Source: a virus. From it: DNA of 64,000 nt. Shown here in pieces: positions 2,333-64,000 of this stretch; the stretch's first letter is position 1; every line of letters begins with the position of its first letter. The notes under the pieces are model-generated. The model made no database searches. It was not told the DNA's origin and saw nothing but the letters and a program-made list of their open reading frames with translations. The stretch covers positions 1 to 64,000 of IMG/VR virus record IMGVR_UViG_3300010885_053065. One strand, written 5' to 3'. The position numbers were made by a program, and so were the translations under genes.

Positions 2333-3274
2333 TTAAAACGGTATTGCGTCAAAATCAGGTTGCACTTCCTGATAAGAAACTGACTGCACAGTTTCTTTCT
2401 TGTGAGTGTAAGTAGGGAAGTCAGCAAAAGACTCAAATAAACTTACTATAGTTTGTCCTACTTCGGTATCCTTACCGATATAAAGTTTATCAAAAGCCTC
2501 TGTAGTGGTCTCCACTTGTCTTTCTCTTACTGTTTTAGTAACAGAGATACCAACCTCACCTAGGGTAGGAACTTTATAACTTTGTGGCACAACAAATGCT
2601 GCTTTCTCTCCATTCTTGTGATAACCAAAACTCACGTCAAACACACACAAAGCATGAACAAGATTACTGAACCTTGTTCCTACAGGTTTCTTAGTTAACT
2701 GTGCAATAACTGCATCTACTTGTCCATAAAAATCTTGAAGAGCAGATCCTATACTCCCCCCTGGTCCTTTTCCCATGGGAAGAGATAAAGGCAAAGCATG
2801 CAGAGGTTGATTATTTTGATCTAGTAAAAGAACTAGGTTCCTTGTCTTCATTCTCCACTTTTTTTTAACACCTTGTTGTTCTTTTTCTTCCTTAGCTGCA
2901 TCGGTCAGTTGATCATTGCGATAAGCAAGGTCTTCAAAAACAAAGCGTCCTTGCTCGTTCTTTTTCTCAATCTCTGGAGCAGAGCGATGAAGAAAAACTA
3001 TTCTTGCAGAAGTAGTAATATATCCTTCTATTTCCTTTTCTTCTACTCCTAAAATGGCTGTATATTCAGCCCATTGAGTAGTAGAAGAAAAACCTATTTG
3101 CTCAGCCTGTTTTTTAGGAAGAAATAAACCATAAGGGATGTTACCTCTTTTAATCTCTTTAAGAGTACCTTTAGGGTTGATAAACTGAGCGTAATTTAAA
3201 GACTGTTTTCCAGTAGCTTCTTGACATTCAAAATCTGCAACGTTGACATTGGTAATGACTGCTAAGTTTGACAT
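2333..3274 (-). CDS. Hypothetical protein, possibly DUF5895-like
   Basis: 313-aa protein beginning MSNLAVITNVNVADF. It has charged helical stretches in the middle and a C-terminal acidic tail ending in FDAIPF, of the kind found on ssDNA-binding proteins that recruit partners. It resembles plasmid- and phage-borne cyanobacterial proteins annotated DUF5895, but I hold that identification loosely. Its place beside a DHH phosphoesterase suggests a nucleic-acid role. The neighbouring 114-aa gene also ends in a short tail with IPF. Confidence 0.55.
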   Translation of the reverse strand: MSNLAVITNVNVADFECQEATGKQSLNYAQFINPKGTLKEIKRGNIPYGLFLPKKQAEQIGFSSTTQWAEYTAILGVEEKEIEGYITTSARIVFLHRSAPEIEKKNEQGRFVFEDLAYRNDQLTDAAKEEKEQQGVKKKWRMKTRNLVLLLDQNNQPLHALPLSLPMGKGPGGSIGSALQDFYGQVDAVIAQLTKKPVGTRFSNLVHALCVFDVSFGYHKNGEKAAFVVPQSYKVPTLGEVGISVTKTVRERQVETTTEAFDKLYIGKDTEVGQTIVSLFESFADFPTYTHKKETVQSVSYQEVQPDFDAIPF

Positions 3275-17780: not shown

Positions 17781-19184
17781 TTATTCAAAAATATCAGATT
17801 TATTGATATTTTTGAAAACTTCTATTGCTGCTGTAGCTGAAGATTCAGTAGAGGATTTAGTTATCCTAACAACCTCTTTCTTTTTGCTGACAACAGGGAA
17901 TATTTCTAAACCAACTCTTTTTATATTGATTCCGGCATTAATATCTCTATCGATAAAAAGTTCTAATTCTTTATCAAAATACTCTCTAATTGAGCAATCA
18001 GTAAATACAAGCTCATCTCGATAGGAAAGTAATTGAGAAGTATATGCAGGATTAACTTTAACTACTTTAGCGTCATATTTTTGAGCAACCCATGTCAATA
18101 TCTCAACAAATTGTCCAAAAGCTGCATCTTGCCATGATTTATTTAAACCAGATTTAGATGATTGACCGTTAGGTAAATACGTTCCATCTTTATCTTGTTT
18201 GGCTTTATTTCTTTTTGTTAATCCTTTTAGATTTAAGTCTTCAACAAAGAATACTTTTTTGCCAGTTCTACACAAAGCATGAGCAATTTTATATTGAAAA
18301 TCTTTTCTTTGTCTAGCTATATGTTTATGAAGTTTAGCTTCTTTTATAGCTGCTTTTTTTCTTCGATTAGACCCTTTTTGTTTTTTAGCTTTTTCCTTAG
18401 AAATCTCAGCTAATTTATCTTGAGACTTCCTAAAAGCTTTCAATGAGTTGAGTTTTTCGCCTTCTGATGTTGCTAAATAAACATCATCTTTTAATACAGC
18501 ATCCAAGCCTATGGAATTATCCCAAGTTGGTAAAATTTCATCATCAATCTTGGTAGTAGTATGATCATCAATAATAAGCAATATATACCAACCATCTAGT
18601 TCTTTAGTGATACCAATCTGCTTAAGAATAAAACTTTCTGGTAATGGTCTATGAAGGTTAATTTTTACGTTCCCTATTTTTGGGATTCTAATTAACTTTT
18701 GTTTATTACTAATGTCCTCTTTTAACCAATTATCTTTAACGTTCTCAAAAAATAACGTTGTGTAGTCCTTACTTCCTTTGAACTTAGGTCTACCACTACG
18801 ATTGCCACTAGAATCTCCTTTAAGAAATCTTGTAAAAGCTAAATCAACTCTTTTACAAACGTTTTGCATTACAGAAGAATGTGGTTTAGCAAAATCTAGT
18901 ATTTCTCCTGAATGTTGAACAGCTACAGGAGATTTGTTTAATACAGCTATTTGTCTTTTTTGACTGTAATAATTCGGGCTATCTATCTTTGCTGATATTG
19001 AACAAGTAAGCGGACATCTATCAATTAAACAACTGTTATGACGTATGTTATTCTCTTCATACCAAGCAAAACGTTCACCAATCATTTTGTTATACCAATA
19101 TCGGCATATTCTCAACCAAATATTAAGTTCTTCTTCTTGTTCTTTTGTTTCAAATTCAATGAGGTATTTACGAGTGAGAATCAT
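17781..19184 (-). CDS. Cas12-like RuvC nuclease (TnpB-derived, compact type V effector)
   Basis: 467 aa. The RuvC active site is complete: Asp228 in SIGLDAVL, Glu315 in FFVEDLNLKG and Asp414 in DRDINAGINI. A basic helical segment separates RuvC-I and II (KKQKGSNRRKKAAIKEAKLH), as in TnpB and Cas12. Unlike canonical TnpB (the intact one here is at 26556), the CxxC...CxxC zinc ribbon is gone: only Cys397 remains and the region reads NPAYTSQLLSYRDELVFTDC. Loss of the ribbon and adjacency to a CRISPR array with an anti-repeat support a guide-dependent effector over a transposon TnpB. Its size fits the smallest Cas12 classes (V-U type; V-U2 and V-U5/K are known from cyanobacteria). It is transcribed opposite to the inferred array strand. 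PAM and activity are unknown. Confidence 0.8.
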   Translation of the reverse strand: MILTRKYLIEFETKEQEEELNIWLRICRYWYNKMIGERFAWYEENNIRHNSCLIDRCPLTCSISAKIDSPNYYSQKRQIAVLNKSPVAVQHSGEILDFAKPHSSVMQNVCKRVDLAFTRFLKGDSSGNRSGRPKFKGSKDYTTLFFENVKDNWLKEDISNKQKLIRIPKIGNVKINLHRPLPESFILKQIGITKELDGWYILLIIDDHTTTKIDDEILPTWDNSIGLDAVLKDDVYLATSEGEKLNSLKAFRKSQDKLAEISKEKAKKQKGSNRRKKAAIKEAKLHKHIARQRKDFQYKIAHALCRTGKKVFFVEDLNLKGLTKRNKAKQDKDGTYLPNGQSSKSGLNKSWQDAAFGQFVEILTWVAQKYDAKVVKVNPAYTSQLLSYRDELVFTDCSIREYFDKELELFIDRDINAGINIKRVGLEIFPVVSKKKEVVRITKSSTESSATAAIEVFKNINKSDIFE

Positions 19185-22389: not shown

Positions 22390-22899
22390 ATGAAAGAAGT
22401 AGCAGAGCAACTAATACTTAGTTCAGCAAACGAGATAAAAACAAAAAGAGAACGGACAGAAAGAGAAATAAGAGAAAAAAGAAAAAAAGAAAGAGAAAAA
22501 TACGGTGATATAGATTTCGGTGATCACCTTATTGGTGAATATAAAATTAGTAAATATCTACAAGACAAATTAGGTGGACAAACAGAGGTAAATACACCAA
22601 CAGGAAAAATAGATTTATTAACTGATTCTTTGTTGATAGAAATAAAGGAATTTGCTAACTGGAAAACAGGTATTGGACAATTATTTGCTTATGGATATTT
22701 TTACCCATCACACAAAAAAGTTTTATATTTTTACGGCAGACTTGGTGATTACTTTAAAATAGATTTAGTCGTAGAAATCTTATCATCTCTTGGTATCGAG
22801 CCTATGTTTGTTTACAAAAGCGAATTCGATAAATACTTAGAGCTTACGCCTTTTCCGAATGAGATGATTGTTTGTAATGTTTGTTGTGTAGAACTTTAG
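22390..22899 (+). CDS. PD-(D/E)XK nuclease-like protein (169 aa)
   Basis: A charged helix (KRERTEREIREKRKKER) is followed by GKIDLLTDSLLIEIKEFANW, giving the nuclease triad Asp75...Glu84-x-Lys86, then GIGQLFAYGYF, a helix common in restriction-endonuclease-fold proteins. Probable DNA end-processing or Holliday-junction-type nuclease; exact role unknown. Confidence 0.65.
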   Translation: MKEVAEQLILSSANEIKTKRERTEREIREKRKKEREKYGDIDFGDHLIGEYKISKYLQDKLGGQTEVNTPTGKIDLLTDSLLIEIKEFANWKTGIGQLFAYGYFYPSHKKVLYFYGRLGDYFKIDLVVEILSSLGIEPMFVYKSEFDKYLELTPFPNEMIVCNVCCVEL

Positions 22900-22912
22900 G
22901 TATTTACTATAG

Positions 22913-22971
22913 TATAATAAAAGAAATACCCTCTCGCGGGTGAGTGCGACCAACACTTGAACCCCAGAGGG
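22913..22971 (+). promoter_or_regulatory. TATAAT promoter and structured leader L1
   Basis: TATAAT at 22913-22918, then a leader with nested stems: CCCTCT (22929-22934) pairs with AGAGGG (22966-22971), GGG with CCC and AGTG with CACT inside. The same architecture with a different loop occurs at 39539-39596. Confidence 0.7.
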
Positions 22972-23000
22972 AGTAAACCTTAAAACGGAAGGCTCACACT

Positions 23001-23684
23001 ATGAATAATAGCAATAAAGCTATTGTAGCGAAAGTAGATTTCGGATTCACTCAAGTAGATGGTCTCATGCTTCCTGATGGAACATATGCTATCGCGATGG
23101 CTCAAGCAAATAAATTATTAGTATTTTCATCCTCTACTCAAAACGCATTAAAATCGCTAAAACTCTTACTAGGTAAAGACTCTGAACTTATACGAGCAAA
23201 AACAGAATTAGCAAATAACCCTGCATATATTCTGACAATTCCGCAATTCAGAACTCTAATCAGAGAATTGGACAAACGCGGTAATGCTACAGCTACAGCA
23301 TTTATCGATGCAGTCCTAGAAGAAGCTATAGAAAGACGCTTTGATACCGCATTTTGTAAGACGGTAGAAGAAGCTGAAAGAAACGCTTTATTAGCTCAAA
23401 GGATGAACAGACTTCTTGCGAGAAAGCAATGGACTGACTGCATCAGAGACCGTCACCTTGAGTTATACGGAACAAAGCCAACACCTAACCAATATAAGCA
23501 GTGGACAATTCAGGTTAACTTAGTCCTTTTTGACAAGAAACACTTTAACTGCAATCGTGACAATATGGCATTTGAGGAACAAAGAGTTATTGAGAACTTT
23601 GAGTTTACGTGTGTCAGAAAATCTAAACAGTTCCCTTTGGCTAACCCTGAAGAAATTTTAGAAAGAACTCTAGCTAACTTCTAA
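23001..23684 (+). CDS. Antirepressor-like cyanobacterial phage protein (227 aa)
   Basis: 227 aa. Begins with a GTYAIAMAQANKLL segment, then TIPQFRTLIRELDKRGN and ATAFIDAVLEEAIERRFD, a pattern I associate with cyanobacterial proteins annotated as phage antirepressors, although the domain name is uncertain. The C-terminal part (WTDCIRDRHLELYG ... NRDNMAFEEQRVIENFEF) is typical of the same group. It has its own TATAAT promoter and a structured leader. Probably a regulator that counters a repressor or defence switch. Confidence 0.6.
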   Translation: MNNSNKAIVAKVDFGFTQVDGLMLPDGTYAIAMAQANKLLVFSSSTQNALKSLKLLLGKDSELIRAKTELANNPAYILTIPQFRTLIRELDKRGNATATAFIDAVLEEAIERRFDTAFCKTVEEAERNALLAQRMNRLLARKQWTDCIRDRHLELYGTKPTPNQYKQWTIQVNLVLFDKKHFNCNRDNMAFEEQRVIENFEFTCVRKSKQFPLANPEEILERTLANF

Positions 23685-26543: not shown

Positions 26544-27875
26544 CTACCCGTCGCTCTAGGAGCGCGGGCTTCCAATTTCAATAGGAATAACGTCTAACAA
26601 AACCGAAGTTTTACCAGCCCGACTTACATTCCCTCCATTGGCAGTGTCGCTAGTTCCTAACGACAATAATCGCAAGCCTTCTTCTCTTATGTTTATCGCT
26701 GCATTTATATCTCTATCGTGTTGAGTATGGCAGCTAGGGCACTCCCAATGTCTTACATCTAAGGGCATTTCCGACACTTTGTACAAGCAATTACTACAAG
26801 TCTTAGAGCTAGGAAACCATCTATCTATCTCTAGATAAACCTTTCCTTCTTTCTCTGCTTTGTACTTGAGCATTGTCCCAAACTTACCCCAACTAACATC
26901 ACTAATAGCTTTAGCTAATTTATGGTTGCGTACCATCCCTTTGACATTTAGATTTTCTACGACAATCACTTGGTTATCGTTGACTATCTTGCGAGATAGC
27001 TTGTGTAAAAAATCTTCCCTACAGCGACTTATTTTTGAATGTACTTTAGCTACTAATTTTCTAGCTTTATTTCTTGAGTTACTTCCTTTTTTCTTCCTAT
27101 TAAGTTTCTGTTGCTTCCTCTTAAGGTTCTTCTGATGTTTCTTGAAGTGTTTAGGATTATCGTATTTACTGCCATCACTGGTAATAGCAAAATGATTTAA
27201 TCCTACGTCTATTCCTATAGCTTTCCCTTCGATTATTGTAGTAGTAGAAGATTCTAATCCATTGTCTGTCAGAATAGAAGCAAAGTATTTACCATCTGGA
27301 TTCAGTGAGATAGTTACAGTTTTAATACTGCCCTCTATTGGTCTATGAATCTTACAGTAAATCTCTCCTATCTTAGGAAACTTAATCGCCTCATCTAATA
27401 TAGTTACTCGCTGAGGATAGCTAATAGATTGTTTACCATGCTTGGATTTGAAACTAGGTAAACCCGCACGTTTCTCAAAGAAGTTTTTGTAAGCAGTAGA
27501 TAAATTGAGTGCTACTACTTGGAGACATTGAGAGTAAGCATCAGACAGCCATTCATATTCTTTCTTTAGATTAGGTAATAAACCCTGAATAACTCCTCTT
27601 GATAGACCTTTACCTGTAGTCTTATAGGTTTCCTGACAAAGATTCAAGCTATAGTTCCAATACCACCTTACACATCCAAACGCCTTTGCTAGTTGCGTTT
27701 GCTGTTCATTAGTAGGATAGATTCTGAACTTATAGGCTTTATACATTTATCAGTTTTCTGTATTACTGCTACAAGTCTAGCGCAACAAAAGGAAGATTGC
27801 CAAAGATTCTAGACAATGGTTTGCTGTCAAAATTCATCCCGACGCTTATTAAGCGCGGGACTTCTTTTGGATTGA
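26544..27875 (-). mobile_element. IS200/IS605-family (IS1341-type) element carrying tnpB only
   Basis: About 1.33 kb. Both ends hold similar hairpins: CCCG-CGCTT/AAGCG-CGGG at 27838-27859 and CCCG-CGCTC/GAGCG-CGGG at 26547-26568. The left flank target reads TTAAC. There are no terminal inverted repeats or target duplication and no tnpA, so it would need a transposase in trans. It interrupts a Bro antirepressor gene. Confidence 0.75.
26556..27746 (-). CDS. tnpB: TnpB RNA-guided nuclease, canonical
   Basis: 396 aa with an intact RuvC site (Asp180 in GIDVGLN, Glu264 in VVENLNVKG, Asp346 in DRDINAAINI) and an intact zinc ribbon (Cys317, Cys320, Cys336, Cys339). TnpB proteins use an omega RNA from the 3' end of the element. 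The right-end hairpin at 26547-26568 overlaps the last codons, where that RNA is normally encoded. It serves here as the contrast for the ribbon-less Cas12-like protein at 17781. Confidence 0.92.
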   Translation of the reverse strand: MYKAYKFRIYPTNEQQTQLAKAFGCVRWYWNYSLNLCQETYKTTGKGLSRGVIQGLLPNLKKEYEWLSDAYSQCLQVVALNLSTAYKNFFEKRAGLPSFKSKHGKQSISYPQRVTILDEAIKFPKIGEIYCKIHRPIEGSIKTVTISLNPDGKYFASILTDNGLESSTTTIIEGKAIGIDVGLNHFAITSDGSKYDNPKHFKKHQKNLKRKQQKLNRKKKGSNSRNKARKLVAKVHSKISRCREDFLHKLSRKIVNDNQVIVVENLNVKGMVRNHKLAKAISDVSWGKFGTMLKYKAEKEGKVYLEIDRWFPSSKTCSNCLYKVSEMPLDVRHWECPSCHTQHDRDINAAINIREEGLRLLSLGTSDTANGGNVSRAGKTSVLLDVIPIEIGSPRS

Positions 27876-28268
27876 GTTAACAGCATCTCAGCAGGTGACT
27901 TAGCTTGAATTGAGTAGCTACCAATTTTTCTGATTGAAGGAATGACCTCAGATGTTAGCCATTTTTTAAAAACTTTGGCTTCTGGCTTGCGAGAAGTTAG
28001 GACTAGTGAATATAATCCAGATTCTGAAATCGTTAATATATCTCGGTTTTGACCTGCTACGAATAATGTTCGGATCAGCTTTTCATCTTCATCGAGCCTT
28101 TCGGAAGTTTTGCTAACATCTGTTAACTCAAGAACTTCACAAACATCTTTAGCCACAAACCAAGGCTCATTATTTACAACTACTACTCGTACTTGATTGT
28201 CGTTAAAATTAAAAACTGTTAAATTGTTCATTGGGGTCAACCTACTCCATTAGGTTAATTCAAGTCGT

Positions 28269-28316
28269 CTTCTAAAGTATTTCGAGTGCTTTAGGAGGCG
28301 CATTTCTTATATTATA
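28269..28316 (-). promoter_or_regulatory. TATAAT promoter and hairpin leader L3
   Basis: On the minus strand TATAAT (28316-28311) is followed by a hairpin, TCCTAAAG pairing with CTTTAGAA (28298-28269), in the leader of the Bro gene. Promoter and leader layout match the other antirepressor genes. Confidence 0.55.
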
Positions 28317-28380
28317 CTACATTCTCTTAGACAAGTACTAAGTTAAAGATATTGGCTACTATAGATTCACACATTAAGTA

Positions 28381-39513: not shown

Positions 39514-39538
39514 CAAATTGAAGTTATTTGTTATGTAG

Positions 39539-39596
39539 TATAATGGAAGAAATACCCTCTCGCGGGCAAGTGTTGTAGCACTTAAACCCCAGAGGG
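39539..39596 (+). promoter_or_regulatory. TATAAT promoter and structured leader L2
   Basis: TATAAT 39539-39544; outer stem CCCTCT (39555-39560)/AGAGGG (39591-39596); inner GGG/CCC and AGTG/CACT stems. The sequence is closely related to L1 at 22913, with loop changes and stems kept. Confidence 0.7.
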
Positions 39597-39629
39597 AGTA
39601 ACTAACCTTAATCCAAGTAAGGAGTCACA

Positions 39630-40340
39630 ATGACAAATTTAACACGATTCGACAAAGACGGAATCGAGATATTAATTGACACTCAGACAGGCGAAAGTTT
39701 TGCTAGTATTTCTGGTTATGCACGGATGGCTAACATCTCAAAACAAGCTATATCTAAAAGATGTACCGTCAACCAATCAGTCCTTAAAACGGCTGAAATA
39801 GATACTACAAGCGGAATTAGAACCGTCAACCTAATTACAGAAGATACTATATGTGAATGGATAATTAAAGACAATCCATTTATGGCAAGTCAACTGCTTA
39901 AACTTGGAGTAAGAATGTTTCTTCATCAATTAGCAGGAATTGAAAAAGAATCTATTACACACACACCTCAATTAACAACAAAAGCAACAGCTATAGAATG
40001 GGGTAAGCATTGCCTATCATTGGGGATACACAACGATGGTTATATTCACGAATTGCTTAAGCAGTTAACCATACAAGAATTATCTTTAGTTCAAAATACA
40101 AAGCAATTAACTTCTACTGTAGAACCAATTAAAGATGTTACTATTTGTACTGTGAGAGCTAATGAGCTTGGTTATACACCTCAACAGTATGGTAATGGAG
40201 CTGCTTTAGGAGCATTTGTTAAAAAAAGAATAACACCAGTTTTCAAAAAGCGTATAGGTCAATTTGCAACATGGCACTATGAAGTTAATAACGAACTAGA
40301 TCATGCAATTCATCAATACTTTAAACAGAAATCATGCTAA
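39630..40340 (+). CDS. Antirepressor-like protein (236 aa)
   Basis: 236 aa inserted within the tail module. FASISGYARMANISKQAISKRC near the N-terminus reads as an HTH-like element. The C-terminal part (WGKHCLSLG ... ELGYTPQQYGNGAALGAFVKKRI ... WHYEVNNELDHAIHQYF) resembles the C-terminal DNA-binding part of cyanobacterial phage antirepressors. It has its own TATAAT promoter and structured leader. Overlaps the next gene by 7 nt. Confidence 0.6.
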   Translation: MTNLTRFDKDGIEILIDTQTGESFASISGYARMANISKQAISKRCTVNQSVLKTAEIDTTSGIRTVNLITEDTICEWIIKDNPFMASQLLKLGVRMFLHQLAGIEKESITHTPQLTTKATAIEWGKHCLSLGIHNDGYIHELLKQLTIQELSLVQNTKQLTSTVEPIKDVTICTVRANELGYTPQQYGNGAALGAFVKKRITPVFKKRIGQFATWHYEVNNELDHAIHQYFKQKSC

Positions 40341-53514: not shown

Positions 53515-54234
53515 TTAAGCAAAGAAACGAGTGATTGCTAACTCTAATTCTTCGCTATCTTCGTACACATTAATATCTCTTAATTGACCATTACAAAGGC
53601 GACTTTCTTTAGAAGAAATCAACCCTTGTGCTGAGACAAATTTACCTAACCTGACTCGATTCTTGCTTGTGACCTTGTAACCCATCTCTTCAGCCTTTTG
53701 AGCAGCACCCACTAATCGAGCAGAAGGCAACACGGTTGTTGTAGTCTGTCCACTTAATTCACACAACTGATCGCCTAACTGATCTCTCAGTAGTTGAATC
53801 ATTGCAGCAGGTAGCCGACCCTCTAAAAAGACTAAATCTTTGGAAGCATTGATTAGGTCAACTGCATCTCTTTTAGGTGGCAGCTTTTGAACAGGAATTG
53901 CTGTTGAATAAGATCCAACTTTGCGAATGCTAGGGATGACTTCAGAGGTTAACCACTTTTTAAAAGCTTTGGCTTCTGGCTTACGAGAAGTAAGAACTAG
54001 TGAATATAGTCCAGACTCTGAAATAACCGACATACTTTGAATACGATTCATGGCGTCGCTAATACCGACATCATCTTTTTCGTCATCATCTAATCGTGTT
54101 AAAGCATCTCGACTATTAGATATCTCCAAAACTTTGCACACATCTAATGCAACAAACCAAGGCTCACCATTAATTACTATTACTCGTACTTGATTCTCGT
54201 TGAAGCTAAAAATTGATAGACTGTGATCAGTCAC
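53515..54234 (-). CDS. Bro-family antirepressor (239 aa)
   Basis: GTG start at 54234, RBS AGGAGGG upstream. Bro-N domain at residues 5-105 (FSFNENQVRVIVI ... GEPWFVALDVCKVLEIS ... ESGLYSLVLTSRKPEAKAFKKWL), nearly identical in parts to the split gene at 27827. The C-terminal domain (LVGAAQKAEEMGYKVTSKNRVRLGKFVSAQG ... DINVYEDSEELELAITRFF) is like that of the 39630 gene. Acts as a regulator in temperate phages. Structured leader L4 precedes it. Confidence 0.85.
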   Translation of the reverse strand: MTDHSLSIFSFNENQVRVIVINGEPWFVALDVCKVLEISNSRDALTRLDDDEKDDVGISDAMNRIQSMSVISESGLYSLVLTSRKPEAKAFKKWLTSEVIPSIRKVGSYSTAIPVQKLPPKRDAVDLINASKDLVFLEGRLPAAMIQLLRDQLGDQLCELSGQTTTTVLPSARLVGAAQKAEEMGYKVTSKNRVRLGKFVSAQGLISSKESRLCNGQLRDINVYEDSEELELAITRFFA

Positions 54235-54267
54235 TTTCTTTCCCTCCTAAGGAGTAAGTTGATTAGT

Positions 54268-54320
54268 CCTAGCACCTAAAGTTTTGACGGCTTTTAGTTG
54301 CTAGGCATTTTTTTATTATA
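54268..54320 (-). promoter_or_regulatory. TATAAT promoter and hairpin leader L4
   Basis: On the minus strand, TATAAT (54320-54315) then a long hairpin: CCTAGCA-CTAAAAG pairs with CTTTAG-TGCTAGG (54305-54268). Leader of the Bro gene. Confidence 0.7.
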
Positions 54321-54340
54321 CCAAATTTACTTTAAATCCT

Positions 54341-63690: not shown

Positions 63691-63765
63691 ATTGTTAAAT
63701 ACTACAGGTTTACCTATCTATTTTAGCCTAAGCGTATTTGTGGTTTACCAAAAAACCTACTGTAG

Positions 63766-63813
63766 TATAATAGAAAAAGGAAGGTAGCCAAGATTTACAG
63801 TCTACTACCCTCC
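63766..63813 (+). promoter_or_regulatory. TATAAT promoter and hairpin leader L5
   Basis: GTAGTATAATAG box (TATAAT 63766-63771) as in L1 and L2, then GGAAGGTAG pairing with CTACCCTCC (63779-63813, one internal mismatch). Leader of the Rha-type gene. Confidence 0.55.
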
Positions 63814-63840
63814 CCACTCATCCTATCTAGAAAATAAAGA

Positions 63841-64000
63841 TGAATAAATTAAACGTTAACACAGTAAACGAGACTCTTGTTGTAGATTCGAGATTAATTG
63901 CTTCTGAACTTGGAATAGGTCATGAGCCATTTATCAGAACAATTAGAAAATATTCAGACGAAGTAGAACAGTTTGGAATACTCCGTTTTGAAAACGGGAC
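63841..64000 (+). CDS. Rha-type phage regulatory protein (partial)
   Basis: ATG at 63841; the frame is open to the window edge (53 codons). VVDSRLIASELGIGHEPFIRTIRKYSDEVEQFGILRFENG matches the N-terminal domain of the Rha/pRha regulatory family, found with antirepressor domains in temperate phages. Confidence 0.8.

Follow-up and report, generated by a model that had tools for sequence, protein, structure and literature searches.

A covarying RNA family ahead of antirepressor-type genes in a phage and in cyanobacteria, and its probable reading from the opposite strand

The DNA considered here, called the window below, comprises the opening 64 kb of a virus record of 89,719 bases (IMG/VR record IMGVR_UViG_3300010885_053065). 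It contains five antirepressor-type genes, with starts at 23001, 39630 and 63840 on the plus strand and at 28231 and 54234 on the minus strand, each preceded by a box and by some 70-90 nt of leader. A preliminary description had proposed this arrangement of five genes, boxes and leaders, and it is borne out, although 27827 and 53515, by which two of the genes had been listed, are the 3' ends of minus-strand genes, and the gene listed at 63841 starts at 63840. The genes, with the labels of their leaders, are as follows.

23001..23684, plus strand: antirepressor-type gene behind leader L1 (227 aa; weak PHROG transcription-regulator match)
27827..28231, minus strand: Bro-N antirepressor-type gene behind L3 (ATG at 28231, probably the true start, preferred over TTG at 28240)
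39630..40340, plus strand: antirepressor-type gene behind L2 (236 aa; no Pfam family)
53515..54234, minus strand: Bro-N antirepressor-type gene behind L4 (239 aa)
63840..64000 of the window, plus strand: pRha-family gene behind L5 (267 aa; runs on to 64643 of the record)

The 23001 protein has no match in Pfam, and relatives of its gene lie on cyanobacterial plasmids; the 39630 protein is related to ORF14 of Anabaena phage A-4L and, distantly, to a gene on the Synechocystis plasmid pSYSA. Such relatives of the leader-bearing genes, on plasmids of cyanobacteria and in phage A-4L, point to a cyanobacterial host. Searches of IMG/VR with the portal, 23001 and 39630 proteins returned no relative. 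Two other features of the window may be recorded in passing: a small ORF (window 22390-22899) that directly precedes the 23001 gene, has no PHROG match and by eye resembles an Oscillatoria plasmid ORF (L056:2812-3168) adjoining a 23001-like gene, and a transposase-like gene (PHROG 506; window 17781-19184) that sits between thymidylate synthase-like and DNA polymerase-like genes.

At all five antirepressor-type genes, an extended -10 box, TAGTATAAT or TGGTATAAT, is followed by a hairpin region.

22910..22918, plus strand: L1 sense extended -10 box TAGTATAAT (23001 gene)
39536..39544, plus strand: L2 sense -10 box TAGTATAAT
28311..28319, minus strand: L3 sense -10 box TAGTATAAT
54315..54323, minus strand: L4 sense -10 box TGGTATAAT
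63763..63771, plus strand: L5 sense -10 box TAGTATAAT

GTATAAT-like boxes had been put forward as the common mark of these genes, and for the long pattern TAGTATAATNNAA this is so for four of the five: it matches exactly at four places in the 89.7-kb record, each of them at one of these genes, the fifth gene (L4) having TGGTATAAT instead. The bare GTATAAT is not enriched (14 found, 15.2 expected), and the remaining one-mismatch matches, none of them upstream of antirepressor-type genes, look like chance. The fold that had been attributed to every leader is likewise only partly upheld on the sense strand, where L1, L2 and L4 fold better than their shuffles (z -3.5, -3.0 and -2.7), L5 is marginal (z -1.9) and L3 gives no signal (z -1.0).

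How much, then, do these leaders have in common? In L1 and L2 the nested stems are alike while the loops differ, just as had been noticed at the outset. L3, L4 and L5 have the L1/L2 architecture, with recognizable homology confined to L1 and L2; by eye, L3 and L4 have a short inner stem in common. The first link to a wider family came through protein, from the 39630 gene to its distant relative on pSYSA, whose leader repeats the L1/L2 design with an outer stem that is changed in sequence yet paired. A genome pattern scan added a member in Xenococcus PCC 7305, which a second copy adjoins. With covariance models built from five sequences and then from eight, an unsupervised search of 388 genomes of one cyanobacterial order gave about 20 strong matches, nearly all of them preceding antirepressor-type genes; the same search begun from another center in that order returned the identical set, and the weak matches (L135-L139, E > 1e-4) were counted as noise.

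The RNA family as it stands has 22 members, all cyanobacterial in setting: cellular contigs, plasmid pSYSA and the phage of this record. Across 22 sequences and 14 pairs, 98.3% of the alignment cells pair, with changes on both sides at 9 of the 14 pairs and 42 compensated cells, against 0/500 for shuffles, while slid controls reached no more than 6 cells; one of our alignments (A7) was fitted to the covariance model and is biased toward the structure of that model, and two (A4 and A5) carry one N inserted by hand in L1 and in L2, which aligns the P3 register. An alignment without hand-placed letters gives nearly identical structure. Judged by this covariation, L1 and L2 belong to a real RNA family, and the conserved RNA element that had been suspected recurs far beyond this genome. 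None of the 4227 Rfam models matches in the window at gathering score, nor does any match at the leaders at a relaxed threshold. Exact L1/L2 stem patterns found no true relative in IMG/VR, the five matches being GC-rich and looking like chance; of ten genome matches to the stem pattern, nine are noncyanobacterial, and those viewed lie in GC-rich sequence and also look like chance. The family leader was not found in Anabaena phage A-4L, the home of ORF14.

In 20 cases an ORF begins 14-26 nt past the family motif. By Pfam, three of these genes encode KilA-N (one fused to ParB_N), three Bro-N, and one each pRha, AntA and DUF3987; the rest are unclassified, being similar to the 23001, 39630 or pSYSA genes or to a further type that is itself without a class. 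Three matches come without an intact gene, namely a decayed copy (L120) and the near-duplicates L133 and L134 (1501-1544), short variants whose antisense tail has eight Ts and which no ORF follows; these two are possibly free-standing small RNAs or remnants. As for context, one contig carries terminase and DnaB and another a ParB gene, and family leaders lie in CRISPR loci in Xenococcus and on pSYSA. The KilA-N fusion with a ParB N-terminal domain (L122:1575-2606) lies next to a separate ParB gene on its contig, and in the Xenococcus CRISPR locus a Cas6 (L151:12346-13455) has a C-terminal sigma70-r4-like HTH, of the same kind as in the neighboring leader-bearing genes.

From which strand, then, is the RNA read? 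The opposite strand is favored by the U-tract and the antisense -10 box, and by the way in which L3, L5 and the hairpin over the SD fold. The predicted elements are given below; the ends of the RNAs are inferred.

22929..22971, minus strand: L1 P1-P3, predicted antisense terminator hairpin (covariation; hairpin plus U-tract -20.1 kcal/mol)
22973..22997, minus strand: L1 P4 hairpin over the SD (9 bp antisense, 4 bp sense)
22921..22998, minus strand: L1 predicted antisense RNA (~78 nt)
23005..23010, minus strand: L1 antisense -10 box TATTAT after TGC (extended -10 type), inside codons 2-4
39555..39596, minus strand: L2 P1-P3 hairpin, predicted antisense terminator (covariation; -19.3 kcal/mol)
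39598..39628, minus strand: L2 P4 hairpin over the SD (11 bp antisense)
39544..39631, minus strand: L2 predicted antisense RNA (~88 nt; weak antisense -10 TGTTAAATT)
28262..28305, plus strand: L3 predicted antisense terminator hairpin (near-perfect antisense, poor sense)
28234..28261, plus strand: L3 P4 hairpin over the SD
28230..28306, plus strand: L3 predicted antisense RNA (~77 nt)
54268..54305, plus strand: L4 predicted antisense terminator hairpin CCTAGCA..TGCTAGG, then CATTTTTTTATT
54233..54310, plus strand: L4 predicted antisense RNA (~78 nt; antisense -10 box not clear)
63779..63813, minus strand: L5 predicted antisense terminator hairpin, then TTTTTCTATT (-16.9 kcal/mol)
63772..63841, minus strand: L5 predicted antisense RNA (~70 nt)

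The 10 nt that follow P1 contain on average 6.6 U on the antisense strand and 2.8 on the sense strand. With energy cut-offs chosen post hoc, an antisense hairpin plus U-tract is present at all five phage leaders (-14.5 to -20.1 kcal/mol) and at 2 of 76 other phage ORFs at <= -14 (Fisher 8e-7), and at <= -12 it is present at 16 of 20 family genes and 14 of 103 control ORFs, comparisons in which family members are related and family and control ORFs are not independent. These family terminators end about 65-85 nt ahead of the start codon, four genes (L141, L146, L130 and L131) failing to reach the terminator cut-off. A sense-strand terminator was seen at none of the five phage leaders and none of the 20 family genes. 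A scan restricted to loops of 3-8 did not call the L1, L4 and L5 hairpins, and it did call the Xenococcus hairpin, on the antisense strand. The antisense U-tract corresponds to an A-rich stretch that also adjoins the sense -10 box and could owe its composition to that proximity.

The P4 hairpin over the SD, with several sets of compensated pairs, occurs in 20 of 20 family genes; on the antisense strand it has 7-11 pairs and is stabler than its sense counterpart every time (mean -8.0 against -3.2 kcal/mol), mostly because an A.C mismatch in the sense strand (flanking GTAAC..GTCAC) becomes a G.U pair in the antisense. All five phage leaders fold at least equally well antisense, L3 and L5 far better; the L1 P1-P3 hairpin folds as an mRNA leader too. 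In 17 of 20 family genes, and in 6 of 103 control ORFs, the first codons contain an antisense -10 box with a match of 5/6 or better (p 3e-13), and it recurs although the encoded proteins belong to different families. Within the phage, L1 and L5 alone have a box of that quality, L2 and L3 have weaker TGTTAAATT boxes, and none was seen at L4; no antisense -35 was identified.

The preliminary description spoke of all antirepressor genes, which is apt for the five in this phage but not for cyanobacterial Bro-N genes generally: among 30 sampled across the phylum, 5 have an antisense terminator (<= -9), 3 an antisense -10 box and none both, and the Bro-N genes of 37 viral contigs lack a TAGTATAAT leader. 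The only sampled nonfamily Bro-N gene with a strong antisense terminator is G377:C4:18827-19084, where the hairpin (L163; -18.1 kcal/mol) lies about 78 nt before the start codon. Upstream of an antirepressor-type gene near 2379-3044 of G001:C110, a leader of unrelated sequence (L110, reverse strand) looks like the family, with an antisense hairpin, then a U-tract, and an SD hairpin. The leader of a Bro-N gene on a viral contig (L017:2855-2990) has TGTTATAAT, a hairpin and a sense terminator-like hairpin with a U-run, and is possibly an attenuator or a small RNA of another type.

The sequences themselves show hairpins that covary, a bias toward one strand, the U-tract, the positions of the boxes and the tie to the antirepressor gene class. 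What these probably mean, we believe, is that the leaders encode countertranscribed antisense RNAs of about 70-90 nt that pair with the leader and block translation of the antirepressor. That is, promoters would stand face to face: a sense -10 would start the antirepressor mRNA just ahead of the large hairpin, and a promoter facing it from within the first codons—evident in most of the family, weak or not seen at L2, L3 and L4—would start the short RNA, which would cross the start codon and SD (P4) and terminate at the GC-rich P1-P3 and the U-tract. The predicted RNA has two hairpins, reaches from the start codon almost to the 5' end of the sense RNA and would therefore be fully complementary to the 5' leader. 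As is established for RNAs of this type, the duplex would start at exposed loops, extend over the SD and halt translation, with its decay as the probable outcome. Transcription of both RNAs, formation of the duplex, repression by it and its relief are our inference; on this view the antirepressor-type proteins would stay off until transcription or replication outpaces the antisense RNA.

Could the same stems act on the sense mRNA? The preliminary description had in mind an attenuator, a protein-binding site or a target of the encoded regulator, and none of these is the best fit. The most serious version is a cis-acting translational regulator, a riboswitch or autoregulated leader in which P1-P3 is the protein or ligand site and P4 masks the SD. 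It would account for P1-P3 lying close behind the sense -10 box, for P4 over the SD in 20 of 20 genes and for the strong conservation of the unpaired UCGCG/CCA, but the sense P4, with its recurrent A.C mismatch, is the weaker one in all 20, the sense folds of L3 and L5 are poor, and the U-tract and antisense -10 go unexplained; neither the better sense fold nor the sense terminator expected of a riboswitch or attenuator was found. We regard this regulator as unlikely. Much less probable are hairpins that protect the 5' end of the mRNA from RNase E: their site near the predicted 5' end would suit, but such protection does not predict conserved internal-loop bases, P4, antisense -10 boxes or a link to a single gene class. 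Nor do we think it at all probable that the element works as DNA, whether as inverted-repeat operators for the encoded proteins or as single-strand hairpin sites. The gene products are of DNA-binding type, and G.U pairs are rare in P1-P3 on both strands (2 sense and 3 antisense against 295 Watson-Crick), as a DNA element would have it; the arms, though, vary in sequence with compensation, which is unexpected of a sequence-specific operator, and P4 retains a pair that is G.U on one strand. Ordinary promoters with chance hairpins, a reading that draws on the unenriched GTATAAT and the unremarkable sense fold of L3, can hardly be credited when 9 of 14 pairs covary and the structure turns up at one kind of gene throughout cyanobacteria, and for L1 and L2 it is contradicted.

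A countertranscribed RNA of this family may already have been seen. The pSYSA family gene (66,936-67,976) has cas2 on one side and the CRISPR2 array on the other and is carried by the opposite strand (L057:2998-4364; pSYSA 66,936-67,976 and 66,610-66,864), and a mapped CRISPR2 TSS at 68,374 (PMC3575380), with its leader length, agrees with the repeat position on the pSYSA record. From gene order and its place beside CRISPR2, which sll7075 adjoins (PMC3575380), this gene is probably sll7075. The antisense RNA sll7075-as1 is given among the most abundant RNAs of Synechocystis PCC 6803 in the part of PMC3516471 that concerns us, where it appears as an abundance value, with no position inside the gene and no structure, family or function. 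If sll7075 is indeed the gene at 66,936-67,976, that abundance, as given there, fits the antisense model, and sll7075-as1 is probably a member of the antisense RNA family. The gene has also been listed as a potential cas6 (cas6-2b; PMC3575380). Its closest scanned relatives have no Cas6 domain, so the naming needs checking, and the product has the look of an antirepressor-type protein that ends in an HTH rather than of a Cas6.

A few enterobacterial phages are known to control antirepressors through antisense RNA, and RNA-OUT (IS10), CopA (R1) and RNAI (ColE1) are countertranscribed hairpin RNAs with promoters facing their targets. Those three act on other genes, and for them sequence was compared by the Rfam scan only. 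Nearest to what we propose is the sar RNA of phage P22, a 68/69 nt antisense RNA (PMC12197685) that pairs with ant mRNA and blocks its translation; size, type of target and predicted mechanism are similar. The likeness lies in these features and not in any recognized sequence relation. Unlike sar, the leaders here put one architecture before antirepressor domains of many unrelated kinds, at cyanobacterial loci that are phage-like, plasmid-borne or CRISPR-linked, and place the antisense -10 in the first codons. The c4 RNA of phages P1 and P7 is made from the same strand as ant, upstream of it. Structured and small (RF01695; 77 nt; PMC12197685), it represses antirepressor translation as we propose here, whereas our RNA is predicted to be countertranscribed, from the opposite strand. 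RF01695 has no match in the window at gathering score or at L1, and a search as far as E 5 gave none at the remaining leaders or pSYSA; a same-strand, c4-like RNA upstream of ant is disfavored by the strand evidence (terminators, -10 boxes and P4). Closest to home is sll7075-as1, which, as far as its abundance entry goes (PMC3516471), is an abundant antisense RNA like those proposed here.

One further thought is decidedly speculative, and we doubt that it will hold: antisense copies on plasmids, in prophage-like regions and in CRISPR islands might serve as an exchangeable immunity, acting in trans on the antirepressor mRNAs of incoming phages with matching leaders. If so, RNA immunity and CRISPR immunity would be carried side by side. 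The antisense reading itself, if true, would provide a role for an antisense RNA that ranks among the most abundant in a model cyanobacterium, and it would mean that an RNA control module has been kept while the protein domains behind it (KilA-N, Bro-N, pRha and AntA) are swapped across cyanobacterial mobile elements.
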